Under the pieces are notes generated by a model. That model was given only the letters and a program-made list of their open reading frames with translations, searched no databases and was not told the DNA's origin. Position numbers and translations under genes: made by a program. A stretch of 64,000 nucleotides of DNA from a virus. Positions within the stretch are counted from its first letter, which is position 1. Each line of letters opens with the position of its first letter. The stretch lies in IMG/VR virus record IMGVR_UViG_3300028490_000007, positions 1-64,000 of that record; one strand, 5' to 3'. Positions 86-63,075 of this stretch are shown in pieces.

Positions 86-1240
86 TTAGTCTTTCACCTC
101 CGTAATCATTACTGATAACGCAGTCATTTTTGTTGTCATGTGCTTCTCATCAACAATCCAAGCATCCTTCTCATCCGGGTCACTCATAAATCTAGCTAAG
201 TTCTTCACACTTACATCAACGAAGTTACCATCTCTTTTTGCTAGAGTAAGTTTCTCTGCATCAGTAAAGGCTGTTGGGTCAATGATATCTTTCTTATTAC
301 CACCTTTTAAAGTGATAGCATAACCAGGTGCTTTAGCTTTTTTCGCCCCTAAGTTTAGCATAAGCTTCTTAACGTCATCTTTCATAGCTTTCATGTTCTT
401 CTCTTGTATTGCCCACTTCTTTACGGTGTCAACGTCTCTCGCCATATCAGGTGACAATTCAATAGTTTCGCCTGAACCAAGACAGTTATGTGCAAACTTA
501 CATATTGAACATAAGTTACCGACACGACGGTTCACGTCATTAATTGAAAACTCCATCATGTCTTTTTCTTTGTTTACAAACTGAATGTAGTCTTCAATAA
601 CACTGACGAAACTGAGTGCATCATCTTGAGCAATAAGGACTTCTTCTATCTCGAAAGGGATATGGTACTCCTGCTCTCTACCGTCATTGATTTCTATTGC
701 ATACACATAGATATCAATCTCTTCTGGCTTAATACCTTTCTTTTCTGCAATGTATTGTGCTTGCATGTTCGTCTGTCTCACCCAATAGTCATGTGGCTCA
801 GTAGGTATCGCATTTGATGTTTTCAATTCATACAGTATGTACTTTGCACCTTTTCTCTTTGACCTGTTTATGAAAGCCTTCGCTTCTTTTGACTTAATAG
901 TACCTGGGTTTGCCAAGTCTATCAATAGGTCTGGGTGAACTTGAATGAAACTAAACTCTTCTGTTCCGTGGTACTCTCCCTGCTTCTCGTAGAGTACCCC
1001 AAGTTCATCTAGGTTAGCTTCTATAACTCCTTCTGCAATATTACCTTTACGCATACGTATAAACTCTGATAATGTAGGTGGCTGTTCTCCAAAAAGAATT
1101 GGGAATGCAGCTTTCCTTGCACACCCAGATACTGTAGAAGCACCAACCTTTACATCGTGACCATCATACGTCAAACGCTCATGACTTGTTCTTGCCTGCT
1201 CTTGCAGAAAGGCGGTGAGCATTAATTCGCTGAAATTCAT
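86..1240 (-). CDS. Cas4/RecB-like exonuclease (PD-(D/E)XK, Fe-S type)
   Basis: 384 aa. Motifs seen in order: C40 in the N-terminal part, G-N-x-x-E around 66-70, H-P-D at 102-104, E-L-K at 138-140, a Q-rich helix near 157-162, and C244-x2-C247-x5-C253. One N-terminal cysteine plus three C-terminal cysteines around a PD-(D/E)XK core is the arrangement of Cas4/AddB-type nucleases, where the cysteines hold a 4Fe-4S cluster. The likely role is resection of double-stranded DNA ends for phage recombination or replication. Its start overlaps the stop of the upstream putative annealing protein by 4 nt, suggesting a nuclease/annealase pair. No cas1 or CRISPR array is nearby, so an adaptation role is not supported. 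Confidence 0.85.
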   Translation of the reverse strand: MNFSELMLTAFLQEQARTSHERLTYDGHDVKVGASTVSGCARKAAFPILFGEQPPTLSEFIRMRKGNIAEGVIEANLDELGVLYEKQGEYHGTEEFSFIQVHPDLLIDLANPGTIKSKEAKAFINRSKRKGAKYILYELKTSNAIPTEPHDYWVRQTNMQAQYIAEKKGIKPEEIDIYVYAIEINDGREQEYHIPFEIEEVLIAQDDALSFVSVIEDYIQFVNKEKDMMEFSINDVNRRVGNLCSICKFAHNCLGSGETIELSPDMARDVDTVKKWAIQEKNMKAMKDDVKKLMLNLGAKKAKAPGYAITLKGGNKKDIIDPTAFTDAEKLTLAKRDGNFVDVSVKNLARFMSDPDEKDAWIVDEKHMTTKMTALSVMITEVKD

Positions 1241-1821
1241 ACGTCATCCCTTTCGCAAATATACTTGTCTTGCAAAAGCTTAAAACCATAACGCTTAAGT
1301 ACCGTCGCAGACTTTGGCTTAACATCAGACTTTTTAATAATAAAAGTTTTATCTGTTGTTTCAAAGTCAAGTTTCATTCTTCCAAGATTTTGGACTATGG
1401 ATGGCACACGAACCTTACTCGGTGCAGGTACATTTTCTACTACTTGTGGACCTCTGTAGTCTATACCACACTCAAGATCATCCCTGCTAGACATTCCAGC
1501 ATCAAGACCTATACCAAGTGCACCAAGTGCACGTCCTCGGCTTGATGTCTCGCAAAACCTAAACGCATCAATAACTCTATCTTTATTTCCAGACATGTTT
1601 TCTGCTGCTGTTCCGTTCACCATAAAAAACTCTTCACCTTTACTGTTTCTTCCAAGTACCTGTACTTCAAAAACAATATATGAACCATCCTTTGTATGCT
1701 CCCAATAGTGTGATGATTTCATAAACATACCCTTTGGCTGATATTCTTCAACAAAGATTTTGTTTTTCTCTGCCACAGTCATATATTGCTGTAGCTCTTC
1801 AACCGACATTGTGTTACTCAT
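1237..1821 (-). CDS. putative single-strand annealing recombinase (Erf/Sak-like)
   Basis: 194 aa, with a good ribosome site (TAAGGAGAAG). Residues 91-115 contain E-T-S-S-R-G-R-A-L-G-A-L-G-I-G-L-D, then S-S-R-D-D. The pattern 'A-E/T-S-x-G-R-A-L-x-x-L-G-I-G' is common in phage ssDNA-annealing and ssDNA-binding proteins of the Erf/Rad52-like group, and that is the basis of the call. Direct coupling to the Cas4-like exonuclease (4-nt overlap) fits a two-component recombination system. It could instead be a different ssDNA-binding protein with the same local motif; full-length similarity cannot be judged here. Confidence 0.5.
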   Translation of the reverse strand: MSNTMSVEELQQYMTVAEKNKIFVEEYQPKGMFMKSSHYWEHTKDGSYIVFEVQVLGRNSKGEEFFMVNGTAAENMSGNKDRVIDAFRFCETSSRGRALGALGIGLDAGMSSRDDLECGIDYRGPQVVENVPAPSKVRVPSIVQNLGRMKLDFETTDKTFIIKKSDVKPKSATVLKRYGFKLLQDKYICERDDV

Positions 1822-1842
1822 ACCTTCTCCTTATAAGAAAAT

Positions 1843-1866
1843 TTCGTGTAATAGCCTCCACACGAA
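1843..1866 (-). promoter_or_regulatory. hairpin in the leader of the annealase gene
   Basis: Perfect 7-bp inverted repeat TTCGTGT/ACACGAA with a 10-nt loop. On the minus strand the loop contains GGAGG. It lies 22 nt upstream of the 1237-1821 start codon and downstream of the 1911-2390 gene. It could be an RNA processing or stability hairpin, or a weak regulatory site. It has no U-tract, so it is not a classical terminator. Confidence 0.35.
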
Positions 1867-1910
1867 GAGGAAAAATTGTGCTATTCTTGTTACTATCCAA
1901 CTAAGGAAGT

Positions 1911-2390
1911 TCAATTATAGACGACCCATTCAAATGCAGCTTGCTCTGCATTAACTATTAAGCAGGGGTTATCTTCATCATCTAAGTCATAATCATATAC
2001 GATATCAGATGCATCACACCCAATAATCTTCTTAAACTCTTCATCTGAAATGTCAATATCACATCCAATCGAGTCATCATATTCACTGAGTGCAAACATG
2101 CCATCAAGACACACTGTTCTATACTCAGTTTCTTCTTTGTTTATTTTAAAATCAGATAGTACATGTCTTAGTGCAACACCTACATTTCTCATTACTCCTC
2201 CATTAAACTCAAGCAAGAGCCCACCTCTATCCACAGGATATCCGACATCCTCACCATCAGACTGCCACATGCTTGTATTTTCTGCATCTGTTACGATCCA
2301 TTCATTACTCACAAGCCAATCAAATGCCTTCTTCTTTTCTTCTACGGTAACAAATTTTATATTACCATAGACCTCTACATATGTACTCAT
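1911..2390 (-). CDS. hypothetical acidic protein
   Basis: 159 aa, not recognised. It has no obvious signal peptide or membrane segment. The central and C-terminal parts are rich in D/E (for example D-D-S-I-G-C-D-I-D and Y-D-Y-D-L-D-D-E-D). The ribosome site is GGGAG. The ATG follows the stop of the upstream -1 frameshift extension by a single base, so translation may be coupled to frameshifting. Confidence 0.7.
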   Translation of the reverse strand: MSTYVEVYGNIKFVTVEEKKKAFDWLVSNEWIVTDAENTSMWQSDGEDVGYPVDRGGLLLEFNGGVMRNVGVALRHVLSDFKINKEETEYRTVCLDGMFALSEYDDSIGCDIDISDEEFKKIIGCDASDIVYDYDLDDEDNPCLIVNAEQAAFEWVVYN

Positions 2391-2391
2391 T

Positions 2392-2555
2392 TTATCTCCC
2401 TAGATATTTTTTGCTATCAACCATGTTTACGATAGGTGACAACTTGAATAGTTCGTCAGCTCTAATAAATAAACTCTCAGAAGGACCGTCTAAACTCAGC
2501 TCTTTTTCAAGAAGAGCAAATCGCTTAAGGTACTCTGGTATTGACAGCTTTTTTA
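2392..2555 (-). CDS. -1 frameshift extension of the 2553-2846 gene
   Basis: After slippage on G_GGA_AAC the -1 frame stays open for 54 codons, beginning L-K-K-L-S-I-P-E-Y-L and ending K-K-Y-L-G-R at the TAA 2392-2394. It has no start codon of its own near its beginning. It fills exactly the otherwise unexplained gap between the zero-frame stop and the next gene's ATG. The composition is protein-like (an amphipathic helix such as E-Y-L-K-R-F-A-L-L-E-K-E-L). The fusion protein would be about 151 aa. This is an inference from sequence; no expression data are available. Confidence 0.65.
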
Positions 2556-2846
2556 GTTTCCCGATTTACCCACAAAGGTAACTCGAATTTTAGCTTTACT
2601 TTTTAGATATTTATGTACCCATTGAGTAATACTCATATCAATTAGGTCCTCTTCTGGTATTGTGAATTCAAAAACCTCACCTGCACTATATACTGCTTTT
2701 TTACCGTCAAATGAAATGATACTACTTTGTTCTACTGTAGTTCCAACTTTGTCTGACAATACCTCCGCTAGAGTACCATTCATAAGTAGCTCAGGCTTGA
2801 TTGTAGCTGTCTTATTTTTCCCTTTTTCTACTTTAACTTTCATCAT
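2553..2846 (-). CDS. small protein with a programmed -1 frameshift site at its stop codon (zero-frame product)
   Basis: 97 aa; function not recognised. The start ATG overlaps the TGA of the upstream gene and follows AAGGAG. The protein is basic at both ends, with a predicted beta-rich middle. Its last codons are TCG GGA AAC TAA, so the heptamer G_GGA_AAC sits directly before the stop in the correct phase for -1 slippage (see the separate extension entry). The organisation resembles lambda G/GT-type tail chaperones, but the neighbours are early-type genes and no tape measure is nearby, so the role is unknown. Confidence 0.8.
   Translation of the reverse strand: MMKVKVEKGKNKTATIKPELLMNGTLAEVLSDKVGTTVEQSSIISFDGKKAVYSAGEVFEFTIPEEDLIDMSITQWVHKYLKSKAKIRVTFVGKSGN
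2556..2562 (-). promoter_or_regulatory. -1 ribosomal slippery heptamer GGGAAAC
   Basis: Read on the minus strand and in the phase of the 97-aa protein, the heptamer is G GGA AAC, a canonical X_XXY_YYZ site, followed at once by the zero-frame TAA. No strong pseudoknot or hairpin is obvious within the usual 5-9 nt spacing; only weak stems are seen (AGC-gattt-GCT further downstream). The stop codon in the next position may itself promote slippage. Confidence 0.65.
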
Positions 2847-3295
2847 TTTGCTCTCCTTGGAAATTCAAATCCTCTACATCCTTTGATGCGTTGCTGTCGT
2901 GTTGTCATAGGCTCACCCTTGCTATCAGTAACAACTTTATCATACCCATCACGCAACGTCTTTGTTACATGTTCATGTTGAATGTTGATAGGGTAGACAA
3001 AATCTGACCTGTGCTTGTAATCTTTGTCTAAAGCTAATGCCTCTGCAACCTTTTGACTTACGATATAAATCTTACTGTCATCGTGTTCTGGTATCTCTCC
3101 GTATACTTCCTCCTTTATTGCAAATATATTACAGTCCATTACAGACCCCTGTAGTAGTGATGATTTCTGAACCCTAAGTAGATCCTTCCCTCTTGCCGGA
3201 CCTGCACTAAAACCAGATGCCAAGTCCTCCATGTTGTGAGGAGTGAGGTTTATAAGCTCCACTGCTCCACTCACTATGTCTTTTAAATTTAACAA
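2843..3295 (-). CDS. conserved phage hypothetical protein (N-L-T-P-H family)
   Basis: 150 aa. It contains the landmarks I-N-L-T-P-H near residue 16, V-Y-G-E-I-P near 64-70, and Y-I-V-S-Q-K-V-A followed by a C-terminal G-C-R-G-F-E-F. This order (N-L-T-P-H, Y-G-E-V-x-x-L/I-P, Y-I-V-S) recurs in a widespread phage family of unknown function. The start appears to be TTG, positioned 6-7 nt after AAGGAA; the only nearby ATG is out of frame and closes immediately. Its stop overlaps the next gene's ATG. Confidence 0.7.
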   Translation of the reverse strand: MLNLKDIVSGAVELINLTPHNMEDLASGFSAGPARGKDLLRVQKSSLLQGSVMDCNIFAIKEEVYGEIPEHDDSKIYIVSQKVAEALALDKDYKHRSDFVYPINIQHEHVTKTLRDGYDKVVTDSKGEPMTTRQQRIKGCRGFEFPRRAK

Positions 3296-12741: not shown

Positions 12742-12830
12742 AGATGGTTGTCTGAGCGGTTTAAAGAGCTTCCCTGCTAAGGAAGTGTGGGCCTGTCTCA
12801 CCGAAGGTTCAAATCCTTCACCATCTGCCA
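12742..12830 (+). tRNA. tRNA-Ser (GCU)
   Basis: 89 nt with an encoded CCA. The acceptor stem is AGATGGT/ACCATCT with discriminator G; the anticodon stem CTTCC/GGAAG encloses CTGCTAA, giving anticodon GCU; there is a long variable arm as in class II tRNAs; the T stem is GAAGG/CCTTC with loop TTCAAAT. It would read AGC and AGU serine codons. It is the only tRNA I found in the window. Confidence 0.95.
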
Positions 12831-51119: not shown

Positions 51120-51374
51120 ATGATAAAAGCTTTTGAAGACAAAATATTAGCCAAACGTGTAGGTGAAGATAACCTTACATCAAAGGGCGTAGTTAAAACT
51201 TCTACCAATAAAGAGAAGCCGTTAAAGGTGGTTATTATTGACAGTGCAGTCAGTGAAGTGGTAAAAGGTGATACCTTTCTTATTGCGAGATTTTCAGGAA
51301 TGGAATTTGAGTTCGAGAATGAAGAATATCTGACTATTGGTATCGATGATATAATCGCAAGGATTACGTCATGA
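51120..51374 (+). CDS. GroES-like co-chaperonin
   Basis: 84 aa, slightly shorter than the usual 95-97. It keeps the family layout: D-K-I-L-A-K near the start, G-V-V-K, V-V-K-G-D-T-F, then F-E-F-E-N-E-E-Y-L-T-I-G-I-D-D-I-I-A-R-I (compare the E-Y-L-x-x-x-E-x-D-I-L-A ending of GroES). The mobile-loop region is short. It overlaps the GroEL-like gene by 4 nt and shares its promoter. It would cap the GroEL ring and might adapt it to phage proteins. Confidence 0.75.
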   Translation: MIKAFEDKILAKRVGEDNLTSKGVVKTSTNKEKPLKVVIIDSAVSEVVKGDTFLIARFSGMEFEFENEEYLTIGIDDIIARITS

Positions 51375-52807
51375 TAAAATCAACAGGTCCTAATTCTAAT
51401 GAGTTTGTCAAAAATGTGATGGAGCAAGTATCTTCTTTGGTTGAGGTAACATACGGTCCCAGTGGTGGATTTGTAGTCTTATCAAATGGAAATACCTCAC
51501 TAGCAACAAAAGATGGAGTTTCTGTTATTAGAGCACTCGTCTCCAATGATGATTTAGAACAAGCAGTCATTAGTGTGATACAAGAAGCAGCCTTGAATAC
51601 TCTTTCTAAAGCAGGTGATGGTACGACGACAACCATTGTTCTTGCAAACCAACTACTCAAATCATTCTCTACTTACGACTATATGAAAAAAGAAGAAATC
51701 ATCAAGTCTGTAAAAGAGGAAATCCGAAAAAAAAGCAAACCTGTAACTATTGGGTCAGATGCACTTACGTCTATCGCTATGACCTCAACATCTGGAGATA
51801 AGTCATTGGCGAAAACAGTATTGGAAGCTTTCACCATAGCAGAGAGCCACGGTATCTCTGGCGTTATTGCAGAGCCTCATTTAGGAAGATGTACTTCCGT
51901 GGATACTGTTGATGGAATAAGCTTTACCGGTAATATGATTGACACTATATTCTATGATAGCCAAGAGCTTAGAACAAAGAGTGCTATTGATCCACATATT
52001 ATATTTGCTATGGATGAGGTGTCTGGTGAAGATGATATAGTTGAACTCATAACTACCTGTGTAAACAAAGGGGTTGAAGATCTAATTATTATCGCTCCAT
52101 CTTTTGCAATGACCTCCTTATCTGCTCTGTCTATAAACCATAAGGTCTCAATGAACCTAATGCCTATTGCAGTAGATGGTGGTGATGCAGTCCGAACAAA
52201 AATGGCTATTCAGGCTATTGCCACTGCTTTAGGAGCAACTATTGTTGGTGAAGAAAGTGGAGTGTCTATCGGCGATGTCTCAGAGGATATGATTATCCCC
52301 GTAGGAAAGATCTCTATATCTGGTAAATCTGTTGTTGTCTCAGGATACGATAACAGTTCAAAGGAGAGCATCAACGAACTCGTCAATAGATATGAGTCAA
52401 AGCTTAGAGCCGTTGCTTCAGATGAAGAAAGAGACATGATTAAAACTCTCATCTCAATCCTCAAGAAAAAAATGGTAAAAGTCATAGTTGGAGGGCACAC
52501 TTTAAACTCAATCACTGAGAGAAAAGACCGTGCTGACGACTGTATAAACTCTGTAGAACTAGCACTAAAAGGCGGTGTCGTTCCAGGAGCAGGACGAGCA
52601 TATACCAACATGGGGATAGGCATCAATACTGGCACGAATATAGATAAGGCTGTAGAGGCTGTATCTAGGATAATCAACAAAGGGGAAGTGTCTCCTACAG
52701 CACTCCAAACCCTAGACCCGACAATAGTCGCAGAGATCGTCGCAGAGCAGGCTATAGAGCTTGCATTCATGCTAGGTATGACAAGAGCTGTCGTACTTAC
52801 ACAATAA
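51371..52807 (+). CDS. GroEL-like chaperonin
   Basis: 478 aa versus about 548 for bacterial GroEL. ATPase residues are in place: D48 in T-K-D-G-V-S, D83 in A-G-D-G-T-T-T and D390 in R-A-D-D-C before G-G-V-V-P-G-A-G-R-A. The G-P-S-G motif is at 29-32. The apical region is reduced and the C-terminal G-G-M tail is absent. It is encoded directly behind its GroES partner and between the tape measure and the tail chaperone, so folding of large virion proteins is the likely job. Confidence 0.85.
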   Translation: MIKSTGPNSNEFVKNVMEQVSSLVEVTYGPSGGFVVLSNGNTSLATKDGVSVIRALVSNDDLEQAVISVIQEAALNTLSKAGDGTTTTIVLANQLLKSFSTYDYMKKEEIIKSVKEEIRKKSKPVTIGSDALTSIAMTSTSGDKSLAKTVLEAFTIAESHGISGVIAEPHLGRCTSVDTVDGISFTGNMIDTIFYDSQELRTKSAIDPHIIFAMDEVSGEDDIVELITTCVNKGVEDLIIIAPSFAMTSLSALSINHKVSMNLMPIAVDGGDAVRTKMAIQAIATALGATIVGEESGVSIGDVSEDMIIPVGKISISGKSVVVSGYDNSSKESINELVNRYESKLRAVASDEERDMIKTLISILKKKMVKVIVGGHTLNSITERKDRADDCINSVELALKGGVVPGAGRAYTNMGIGINTGTNIDKAVEAVSRIINKGEVSPTALQTLDPTIVAEIVAEQAIELAFMLGMTRAVVLTQ

Positions 52808-52818
52808 AAGGAACCCAA

Positions 52819-53589
52819 ATGAAAAACAGTATCACCCCCCCATCAGACACAGAAGAGACAGCCAAGCAAACTGCAGAAGAGAAGTTTGAAGAGTTCAAGA
52901 AAGTAGAGTCAGCAAATGATAAGCTCACAGAGGACAACATTTCTACGGAGGCTATAGATTTTGAAGAAAGTTCTTTTCTTGAAAAAAATAAACATGCAGG
53001 TCAAAAAACAGAGGCTCCAAAAGAAGAAGACGAAGATAATGCTGAAGCATATGAACAAAGCTTCGTAGACAAAGAAATGAATAAGGCTGAAGAAGAAGAT
53101 CTTTCTCCTGAAGAAGCAATGGATAAGGTTATTCGAGAAATAGCAGACCAACCATTTGAAGTGGCTATGTCAAACCTTGAAGTGGAGAAGAACCAAGTAG
53201 TAGAAGCTGCCTCTGGTATATTCTCTTCTAAGGGGTACTTTGAGAAAGACTACTCACTTCCTTTTGGAGGAGAGGTAACAATGAGAAGCAAGACAGTAAA
53301 TGACTATGTTGACTACACAGAATACGTAAGACGTTTATTGTTAGATCCTATCTCTCAAAAAGAGTTTGATACCTTCACTCAAATGAGAAACTTGTCATAT
53401 GCTATTGTTGCTATTGACGGAGATGATATCTCGGAGTTGTCAATAGACGATAAATTTGCATTGCTGACGGGAATGAGCGAAATCAAGATTACTGCCATAA
53501 TCAACAATACGAAAGTTTTCTGGAGAATTACCCACCTTTTACTACACCCAGGTCTAGTCGATTTTTTAGCACAAACGCCAGAGGAGTAA
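52819..53589 (+). CDS. tail assembly chaperone, zero-frame product
   Basis: 256 aa. The first 130 residues are acidic and low-complexity (E/K/A-rich). The C-terminal part carries a compact domain (Y-V-D-Y-T-E-Y-V-R-R-L-L ... L-S-Y-A-I-V-A-I-D-G-D-D-I ... L-L-L-H-P-G-L-V-D-F), in keeping with chaperones that coat the tape measure. Near its end lies a canonical slippery heptamer, allowing a longer -1 product. Here the chaperone is downstream of the tape measure, the reverse of the common order. The ribosome site is AAAGGAACCCAA. Confidence 0.75.
   Translation: MKNSITPPSDTEETAKQTAEEKFEEFKKVESANDKLTEDNISTEAIDFEESSFLEKNKHAGQKTEAPKEEDEDNAEAYEQSFVDKEMNKAEEEDLSPEEAMDKVIREIADQPFEVAMSNLEVEKNQVVEAASGIFSSKGYFEKDYSLPFGGEVTMRSKTVNDYVDYTEYVRRLLLDPISQKEFDTFTQMRNLSYAIVAIDGDDISELSIDDKFALLTGMSEIKITAIINNTKVFWRITHLLLHPGLVDFLAQTPEE
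53562..53568 (+). promoter_or_regulatory. -1 ribosomal slippery heptamer TTTTTTA
   Basis: In the zero frame the codons are GAT TTT TTA, so the heptamer is T_TTT_TTA, one of the most efficient -1 sites. A perfect 6-bp hairpin CCAGAG/CTCTGG (53578-53583 with 53592-53597) begins 9 nt downstream, and the zero-frame stop (53587-53589) lies in its loop. Site, spacing and hairpin are as expected for programmed slippage. Confidence 0.85.
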
Positions 53590-53810
53590 TTCTCTGGGCC
53601 TTCAAGAGGCTTGATGCTATGGACTCACCTCCTGAGCATTCCCTTGAAAAGAGTGTTCTTGAAGGTTTGTTATCATATAGGGCTAGACGAAATAACATGA
53701 TGAGCATCAATAGTTCGCTGCTTGGAGTGTATGGTAGCCTGCTTGCTGCAGGAGGCGGAGACGCAACAGATATAGACGACTTGATAAGAGAAATGTCTAC
53801 TGGCCTTTAA
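53568..53810 (+). CDS. -1 frameshift extension of the tail assembly chaperone
   Basis: After slippage the -1 frame continues for 80 codons to the TAA at 53808-53810. It reads through W-A-F-K-R-L-D-A-M-D-S-P-P-E-H-S-L-E-K-S-V. The complete fusion is about 330 aa. An internal ATG at 53619 has only a poor ribosome site, so independent translation is less likely. The extension has a helical middle and a glycine-rich tail, comparable to the T part of lambda GT. Confidence 0.8.
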   Translation, partial: STNARGVILWAFKRLDAMDSPPEHSLEKSVLEGLLSYRARRNNMMSINSSLLGVYGSLLAAGGGDATDIDDLIREMSTGL

Positions 53811-61491: not shown

Positions 61492-63075
61492 TTAGTAGAA
61501 TGAAACCGCATTTTTATGATGCATATACGCATACATTCCAAATACAATGGCGTGTAGCGTGTCATCTGGCTTCATTGTACTGTGAGTCCACATCTTTCTT
61601 CCCTGTTTCGTCTCTTGCTCAAATTCGGCAAGGATATCAGCAACAAAGAAGCGTGAGTCATCATAGTCTGGAAAAATAAAGTTAAGAGTACGTCCACCTG
61701 AAAGTCTCTGTGGTTTAAATTTCTTTATCAACATCCCCATTATAGTATCAATACCTTGGGTTTTGTTTAGTTGGATCATGTTTCGGTCAGCATCATATGA
61801 AAAACTTCCATTCCCCATATACATAACTTGCCTAAACCTATTATATCCTAAAGCCTGCATCATGTCAGCATTCTGTATCATACCCATACCTGCATCGGCA
61901 CCTACAACATCACATTGAAATAGTCGAGCTGTCTTCACTAATTCGTCTGCCTGAGTATTCGTTCCTCCTGGAGGGAAAATCTTACCCCATACCATTTCCA
62001 TATTTCCATCTTTTCTGTGACCCATTACAACAGCGACAGTTCGTGACTTTATAAGTACACCATCTCCCGTCCAGTCAATACCCATAAAGAAGCCATGGTA
62101 TCCCTTCATCCACTCTTTGTTTGGAGTGTGTGTCATCTTTCCGCCAGTACACATTTCTTTCATCATGTCCAAGTTCAAGAAACGCTGTGCAGCACCATTT
62201 GGAATACCTAGAACTTCTTGGTTGAACTTCTCTGGTGTGTATGTCTGATACTTAGTCCATACCTCTGCCCACTTTGACTCTGAAGTATGAAAAGGCAGAC
62301 AGATCTGAGGAATTCTAAATGCAACATAGTTTGCATGCTTGTCCCCTGTTTCCATCCACTCACCATTGTGTACAGATATTGGCTTTCTACACTTCATGTT
62401 GTTACATATGAGACCCTCTTTTGATATGTTTCTCAAATCCAATATATTCCACTTGTGGCAATGCTTACAGTGTATCATTCTCTCCATCTTGTTAGAGAGT
62501 TCCCATATTACACCAGTTGTATTCTCTAAACTCTTTGCAGTACCGGCATAGGTGATGACAGGTTCTTTTGACGAGGTAGTTACTTCCTCAATAGCAGGAA
62601 GAATATCATAGTCTATGTCTTGGGCTTCGTCTATGTATAAATCATCGGCAGACTTACCACGCACACGTACGGGGTCCATTCCTGTGATAGATGCATAGGT
62701 AAGTTCGATATAGCTTCCGATTATGTTCTTCTTGAAGAATACGTCGTTCTGTGCGTCCTTTCCTGTGAAGGCTGCTTTCAGATGAGGTGTATCATCTATT
62801 ATCTTTTGCAGCTTAGTCTTGGAGAAGGTTTTTGTTTGTGACTCTAGTGGGGCTACATACAAGGCTCTGTTTGGGTGTCTAATAATAGATTTTGTCCCAA
62901 GCTTGGCTGCAAGATATACAGTCTTCCCGACCTGTCTACCTGCAGTAATCATCATCTTTCTCTCGTCAACATCGTACGGTAGCCTAAAAGCCTCGTACTG
63001 GTCAAAGTCTAGCTTCATCCCATCTATATGCACATACTTATCAATAAAATGCGATACTCTTTCATCTGTCTTCAT
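61492..63075 (-). CDS. terminase large subunit
   Basis: 527 aa. Walker A G-R-Q-V-G-K-T (46-52) and Walker B L-Y-I-D-E (146-150) with A-Q-D after it form the packaging ATPase. The nuclease part begins at M-G-I-D-W-T-G-D-G (D334). A C203-x2-C206 ... C224-x4-C229 zinc knuckle separates the two domains, as in some GpA-like terminases. The ribosome site is AAAGGGAAGTAA. Confidence 0.92.
   Translation of the reverse strand: MKTDERVSHFIDKYVHIDGMKLDFDQYEAFRLPYDVDERKMMITAGRQVGKTVYLAAKLGTKSIIRHPNRALYVAPLESQTKTFSKTKLQKIIDDTPHLKAAFTGKDAQNDVFFKKNIIGSYIELTYASITGMDPVRVRGKSADDLYIDEAQDIDYDILPAIEEVTTSSKEPVITYAGTAKSLENTTGVIWELSNKMERMIHCKHCHKWNILDLRNISKEGLICNNMKCRKPISVHNGEWMETGDKHANYVAFRIPQICLPFHTSESKWAEVWTKYQTYTPEKFNQEVLGIPNGAAQRFLNLDMMKEMCTGGKMTHTPNKEWMKGYHGFFMGIDWTGDGVLIKSRTVAVVMGHRKDGNMEMVWGKIFPPGGTNTQADELVKTARLFQCDVVGADAGMGMIQNADMMQALGYNRFRQVMYMGNGSFSYDADRNMIQLNKTQGIDTIMGMLIKKFKPQRLSGGRTLNFIFPDYDDSRFFVADILAEFEQETKQGRKMWTHSTMKPDDTLHAIVFGMYAYMHHKNAVSFY

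Follow-up and report, generated by a model that had tools for sequence, protein, structure and literature searches.

A predicted programmed -1 ribosomal frameshift in a DNA-metabolism operon of a large phage

For tailed phages, conserved -1 ribosomal frameshifts are best known from tail and head genes. The tail assembly chaperones, whether of the lambda gpG/gpGT or the DUF1799 type, combine a small zero-frame protein with a slippery heptamer near its stop codon and a minority long form made in the -1 frame, features that recur in the gene described here. Alternative C-termini by -1 slippage are likewise found in capsid genes (gene 10 of T7/T3, and phage A2) and in the cro gene of phage A2, whilst at dnaX, similarly, one replication protein is produced in two forms (tau/gamma) at a set ratio. 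The present locus departs from each of these systems: unlike the tail chaperones it lies outside the tail region, among DNA-metabolism genes, has no sequence match to a chaperone family, and belongs to a phage whose structural side has a conserved -1 candidate of its own (T_TTT_TTA at 53562); T7/T3 gene 10 and the A2 capsid gene encode capsid proteins with Ig-like or other tails, whereas here a small protein would gain a helical extension; the A2 cro shift shortens a repressor, whereas here the shifted product would be longer; and dnaX, whose protein is unrelated to this one, shortens its product at an A_AAA_AAG site with known stimulators. The mechanism itself is already known; what is unusual is the setting in a DNA-metabolism operon and an undescribed protein family.

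The gene lies on the minus strand of the window, by which we mean the whole stretch of 64,000 nucleotides analysed, part of a 77-kb IMG/VR fragment. Its zero-frame ORF (2553..2846; 97 aa plus stop) starts at an ATG at 2846, 6 bases downstream of a Shine-Dalgarno-like AAGGAG read from the sequence (2853..2858, minus strand), and terminates in K-S-G-N, encoded by AAA TCG GGA AAC TAA. Within this terminus GGGAAAC (2562..2556) stands in X_XXY_YYZ phase, giving the slippery heptamer G_GGA_AAC (2556..2562, minus strand), which abuts the TAA stop (2553..2555, minus strand). After the heptamer the -1 frame (2392..2556, minus strand) reads CTA AAA AAG CTG TCA and continues for 54 codons to a TAA at 2394..2392, and the predicted frameshift product (2392..2846, minus strand) is 151 aa long (97 + 54). 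An earlier note on this DNA had placed the heptamer right before the stop and followed an open -1 frame for 54 codons; both its coordinates and its sequence are correct, and the junction peptide that it proposed for detection, L-K-K-L-S, lies within the expected sequence, of which the full junction is K-S-G-N-L-K-K-L-S. The zero frame is broken by several stops across the extension region, both here and in the homologue described below. Among window ORFs of at least 90 aa, G_GGA_AAC occurs in frame once in 24,518 codons, at 2562.

The frameshift reading is well supported by comparison with a single relative, G001, a 187.7-kb IMG/VR contig reached through its terminase (76% identical). This contig encodes a protein homologous to the 97-aa one (E 1.4e-29, 53-54% identical), and its gene ends AAG TCG GGA AAC TAA AAA AGC TTC. 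The -1 frame there stays open for 69 codons, giving a predicted fusion of 165 aa; heptamer, stop and -1 extension are thus all kept, and the findings that the earlier note had named as refuting the shift (a lost heptamer, or a downstream part with its own start) are absent from the sole homologue found. Identity between the two N-terminal parts at the first, second and third codon positions is 0.69/0.77/0.32, and the third positions look saturated. Across the shift site, by contrast with third codon positions elsewhere, the block TCGGGAAACTAAAAAAGCT (2546..2564, minus strand) is identical over 19 bases, against a longest identical run of 14 bases in the rest of the N-part; in a codon-shuffle null, a run of at least 19 bases arose anywhere in 0.7% of trials. 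Downstream, aligning the two extensions as read in the -1 frame gives 37% identity and 12 codons that differ only synonymously; the alignment scores 92 against 21 +/- 4 for shuffled sequences, about 18 sd above (BLASTP E 8e-12). This degree of identity and the synonymous changes, in a region where the zero frame is broken by stops, argue for protein-coding selection in the -1 frame. Because 19 bases at the site have been kept despite 32% third-position identity, together with an extension homologous in the -1 frame, we regard G_GGA_AAC at 2562 as a probable programmed -1 ribosomal frameshift site, giving 97-aa and 151-aa products from one gene, and put the probability of this reading at about 0.88.

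Conservation rests on one homologue, the family comprising two sequences (window and G001) among all the collections searched. Viral contigs queried with the 97-aa and 194-aa proteins, the Cas4-like protein and an alignment of the fusions returned nothing or G001 alone, and further homologues were not found in the genome contigs or the phage collection. The 97-aa protein weakly resembled a Pseudomonas phage capsid/Clp-protease-like protein (E 0.02, 28%), a hit that was not reproduced with the G001 protein and was set aside. Salmonella phage Arash and Vibrio phage D181, which have related terminases, gave no match to the 97-aa gene or to two of the genes near it. The window terminase (61492..63075, minus strand) is 29-31% identical to those of Arash and D181, phages of 180-187 kb, and the 77-kb record probably represents less than half of its phage's genome.

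The slip signal itself recurs in other phages. Scanning viral contigs for the 16-base core GGGAAACTAAAAAAGC recovered 28 stretches, most of which are flanked on at least one side by very short reading frames; the few exceptions include L014, L024 and L026 (53 codons ahead of the site and 85 in the -1 frame). Besides G001, one contig unrelated to the window, L036, shows long open frames both before and after the core: GGGAAACTAAAAAAGC, identical to that of the window gene, marks there the -1 shift of a DUF1799-type tail chaperone (1679..2048), and its TAA stop is kept as it is in G001. The L036 zero-frame protein matches phrog_569 (E 2e-11) and the tail assembly chaperone family phrog_313 (E 1.4e-4), its -1 part matches DUF1799 (E 9.6e-14), and a strong 11-bp hairpin begins 7 bases past the heptamer. 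GGGAAAC is also the reported tail-chaperone shift site of Caulobacter phage Colossus (PMC3556154) and of HCTV-1 (PMC5009743). Taken together, the L036, Colossus and HCTV-1 sites indicate that phages do employ this signal for genuine -1 shifts.

Candidate stimulatory elements around the site differ between the window and G001. In G001 a strong 10-bp stem is predicted 7 bases past the heptamer; its pairing is not common to the window, where RNA 3' of the heptamer is no more stable than shuffled sequence (z about -0.6), inspection by eye reveals no Shine-Dalgarno-like stimulator upstream, and Rfam gave no match. Stimulators are dispensable at some phage shift sites (PMC5009743). The efficiency of the shift may be low, because the heptamers listed as highly shift-prone in E. 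coli include G_GGA_AAG and do not name G_GGA_AAC (PMC5009743).

The genes around the site place it in an operon of DNA metabolism rather than in the tail region, to judge from their predicted functions. All lie on the minus strand: an upstream gene (2843..3295; 150 aa), which shares 4 bases with the beginning of the 97-aa ORF and occupies the same place in G001; the frameshift gene; a 159-aa gene (1911..2390); a 194-aa gene (1237..1821; 49% identical in G001); and a gene for a 384-aa Cas4/PD-(D/E)XK-like nuclease (86..1240; phrog_1706 E 1.5e-5; 70% identical in G001). The order of the 150/168-aa gene, frameshift gene, 194-aa gene and Cas4-like nuclease is common to G001, where it continues with a DnaD-like helicase loader, and the earlier description of the operon as non-virion is borne out by these neighbours. 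The longest ORF in the window, likely the tape measure gene, is some 43 kb from the site on the opposite strand.

Under the proposed mechanism, most ribosomes would read through G_GGA_AAC and halt at the adjacent TAA, releasing the 97-aa protein. In a fraction of passages, the tRNAs on GGA and AAC would slip back by one base to pair with GGG and AAA, and translation would proceed in the -1 frame, yielding a 151-aa product (165 in G001) whose C-terminal addition of 54 (69) residues is predicted to be mainly helical. That shifting takes place in the cell, with what efficiency and for what purpose, we infer from the anatomy of the locus and its conservation.

Other explanations must be weighed against the same evidence. 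One could suppose a real frameshift whose purpose is translational coupling to the next gene, with an extension peptide of little importance: shifted ribosomes that reach an overlapping gene have been reported for the coat and lysis genes of MS2-type phages (PMC10885494), and in the window the extension stops one base short of the ATG at 2390, as the earlier note had recognised in stating that it exactly fills the gap. In G001, however, the 159-aa gene is missing between extension and 194-aa gene, and some 110 bases separate the end of the extension from the next long conserved gene; the exact fit therefore holds for the window and fails in its relative, and with the amino acids of the extension conserved, coupling as the main purpose appears improbable. 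It is less probable again that the extension is a separate small gene with its own or coupled initiation. The -1 frame of G001 is open upstream, where an ATG precedes the site by 19 codons (ORF 4362..4634 of L007), but in the window that frame is stopped just 5' of the heptamer and no ATG, GTG or TTG follows until 16 codons from the end of the extension; a separate gene would also leave the conserved heptamer unexplained.

Short heptamers arise randomly and both records are metagenome assemblies, which could lead one to read the site as the product of chance, of gene decay or of a sequencing error, with an extension that is never produced. Two separate contigs with saturated third positions nonetheless have in common a 19-base site and a protein-constrained -1 extension, and we give this explanation very little weight. 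Least likely of all is that the frames are joined by transcriptional rather than ribosomal slippage, at the run AAAAAA that directly follows the T of the stop within the conserved block. Six A's is short for transcriptional slippage, and the stop consists of that T and the first two A's; insertions or deletions of A still leave AAC TAA, and slippage in the run cannot remove the stop because it begins with the T that precedes the run.

If the ribosomal frameshift is accepted, its likeliest purpose, which we propose tentatively, would be to supply in fixed ratio two forms of one accessory DNA-metabolism protein. The shared N-terminal domain would assemble and the minority form would add an extra binding segment, as in lambda gpG/gpGT, here within a replication/recombination operon. 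Direct clues to function from the protein are few: Pfam, PHROG and NCBIfam gave no match to the frameshift protein, chaperone families included, although such families diverge fast, and by sequence the family matches nothing described. AlphaFold models of the separately folded parts, each built from two sequences only, give a beta-rich N-part (pLDDT 84) and a mainly helical extension (pLDDT 82). Structure comparison returned low scores only for both, a missing match being no evidence of a new fold; for the N-part these were ferredoxin-like PurS/PII chains and phi29 p6 at Z of about 4, below the level of trust. Weak sequence matches to UBL4A/ubiquitin (E 0.24 to 1) and Rad60-SLD (E 0.09) were also seen, and the model weakly suggests a ubiquitin-like or ferredoxin-like N-domain. 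Partners of ubiquitin-like conjugation, JAB (PF14464) and E1/ThiF (PF00899), were not found in G000 or G001, the window record being a fragment. A fuller picture, and a more doubtful one, would be a two-form replication/recombination factor of a new family, possibly of beta-grasp fold, whose C-terminus is left free or covered by helices through a shift of the tail-chaperone type.

The conservation of such a site in an operon of DNA metabolism suggests that one decoding signal is reused elsewhere to set product ratios. The second half may have been left out of the annotation of many short 'hypothetical' phage genes, and a slippery heptamer abutting a stop, followed by a conserved -1 extension, offers a rule by which to search for them. 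In the window itself, a scan of the whole sequence for in-phase X_XXY_YYZ heptamers that lie at most 12 codons from a stop and gain 30 or more codons by a -1 shift passed G_GGA_AAC at 2562, TTTTTTA at 53562 and no others. The earlier note had also counted two cassettes; to call the pair unusual was an overstatement, since two are on record both for Lactobacillus phage A2 and for Listeria phages, there in head and tail genes (PMC5009743). The second candidate (52819..53800, plus strand), on the structural-gene side of the phage, has its T_TTT_TTA 6 codons before the stop of a 256-aa ORF and an 80-codon -1 frame, and both heptamer and extension are kept in G001, whose protein is 65% identical. 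Directly 5' of this gene lies one for a GroEL-like chaperonin (51371..52807, plus strand; phrog_5725 E 5e-62), and the sole tRNA found in the window is a tRNA-Ser (gct) at 12742..12830 on the plus strand.
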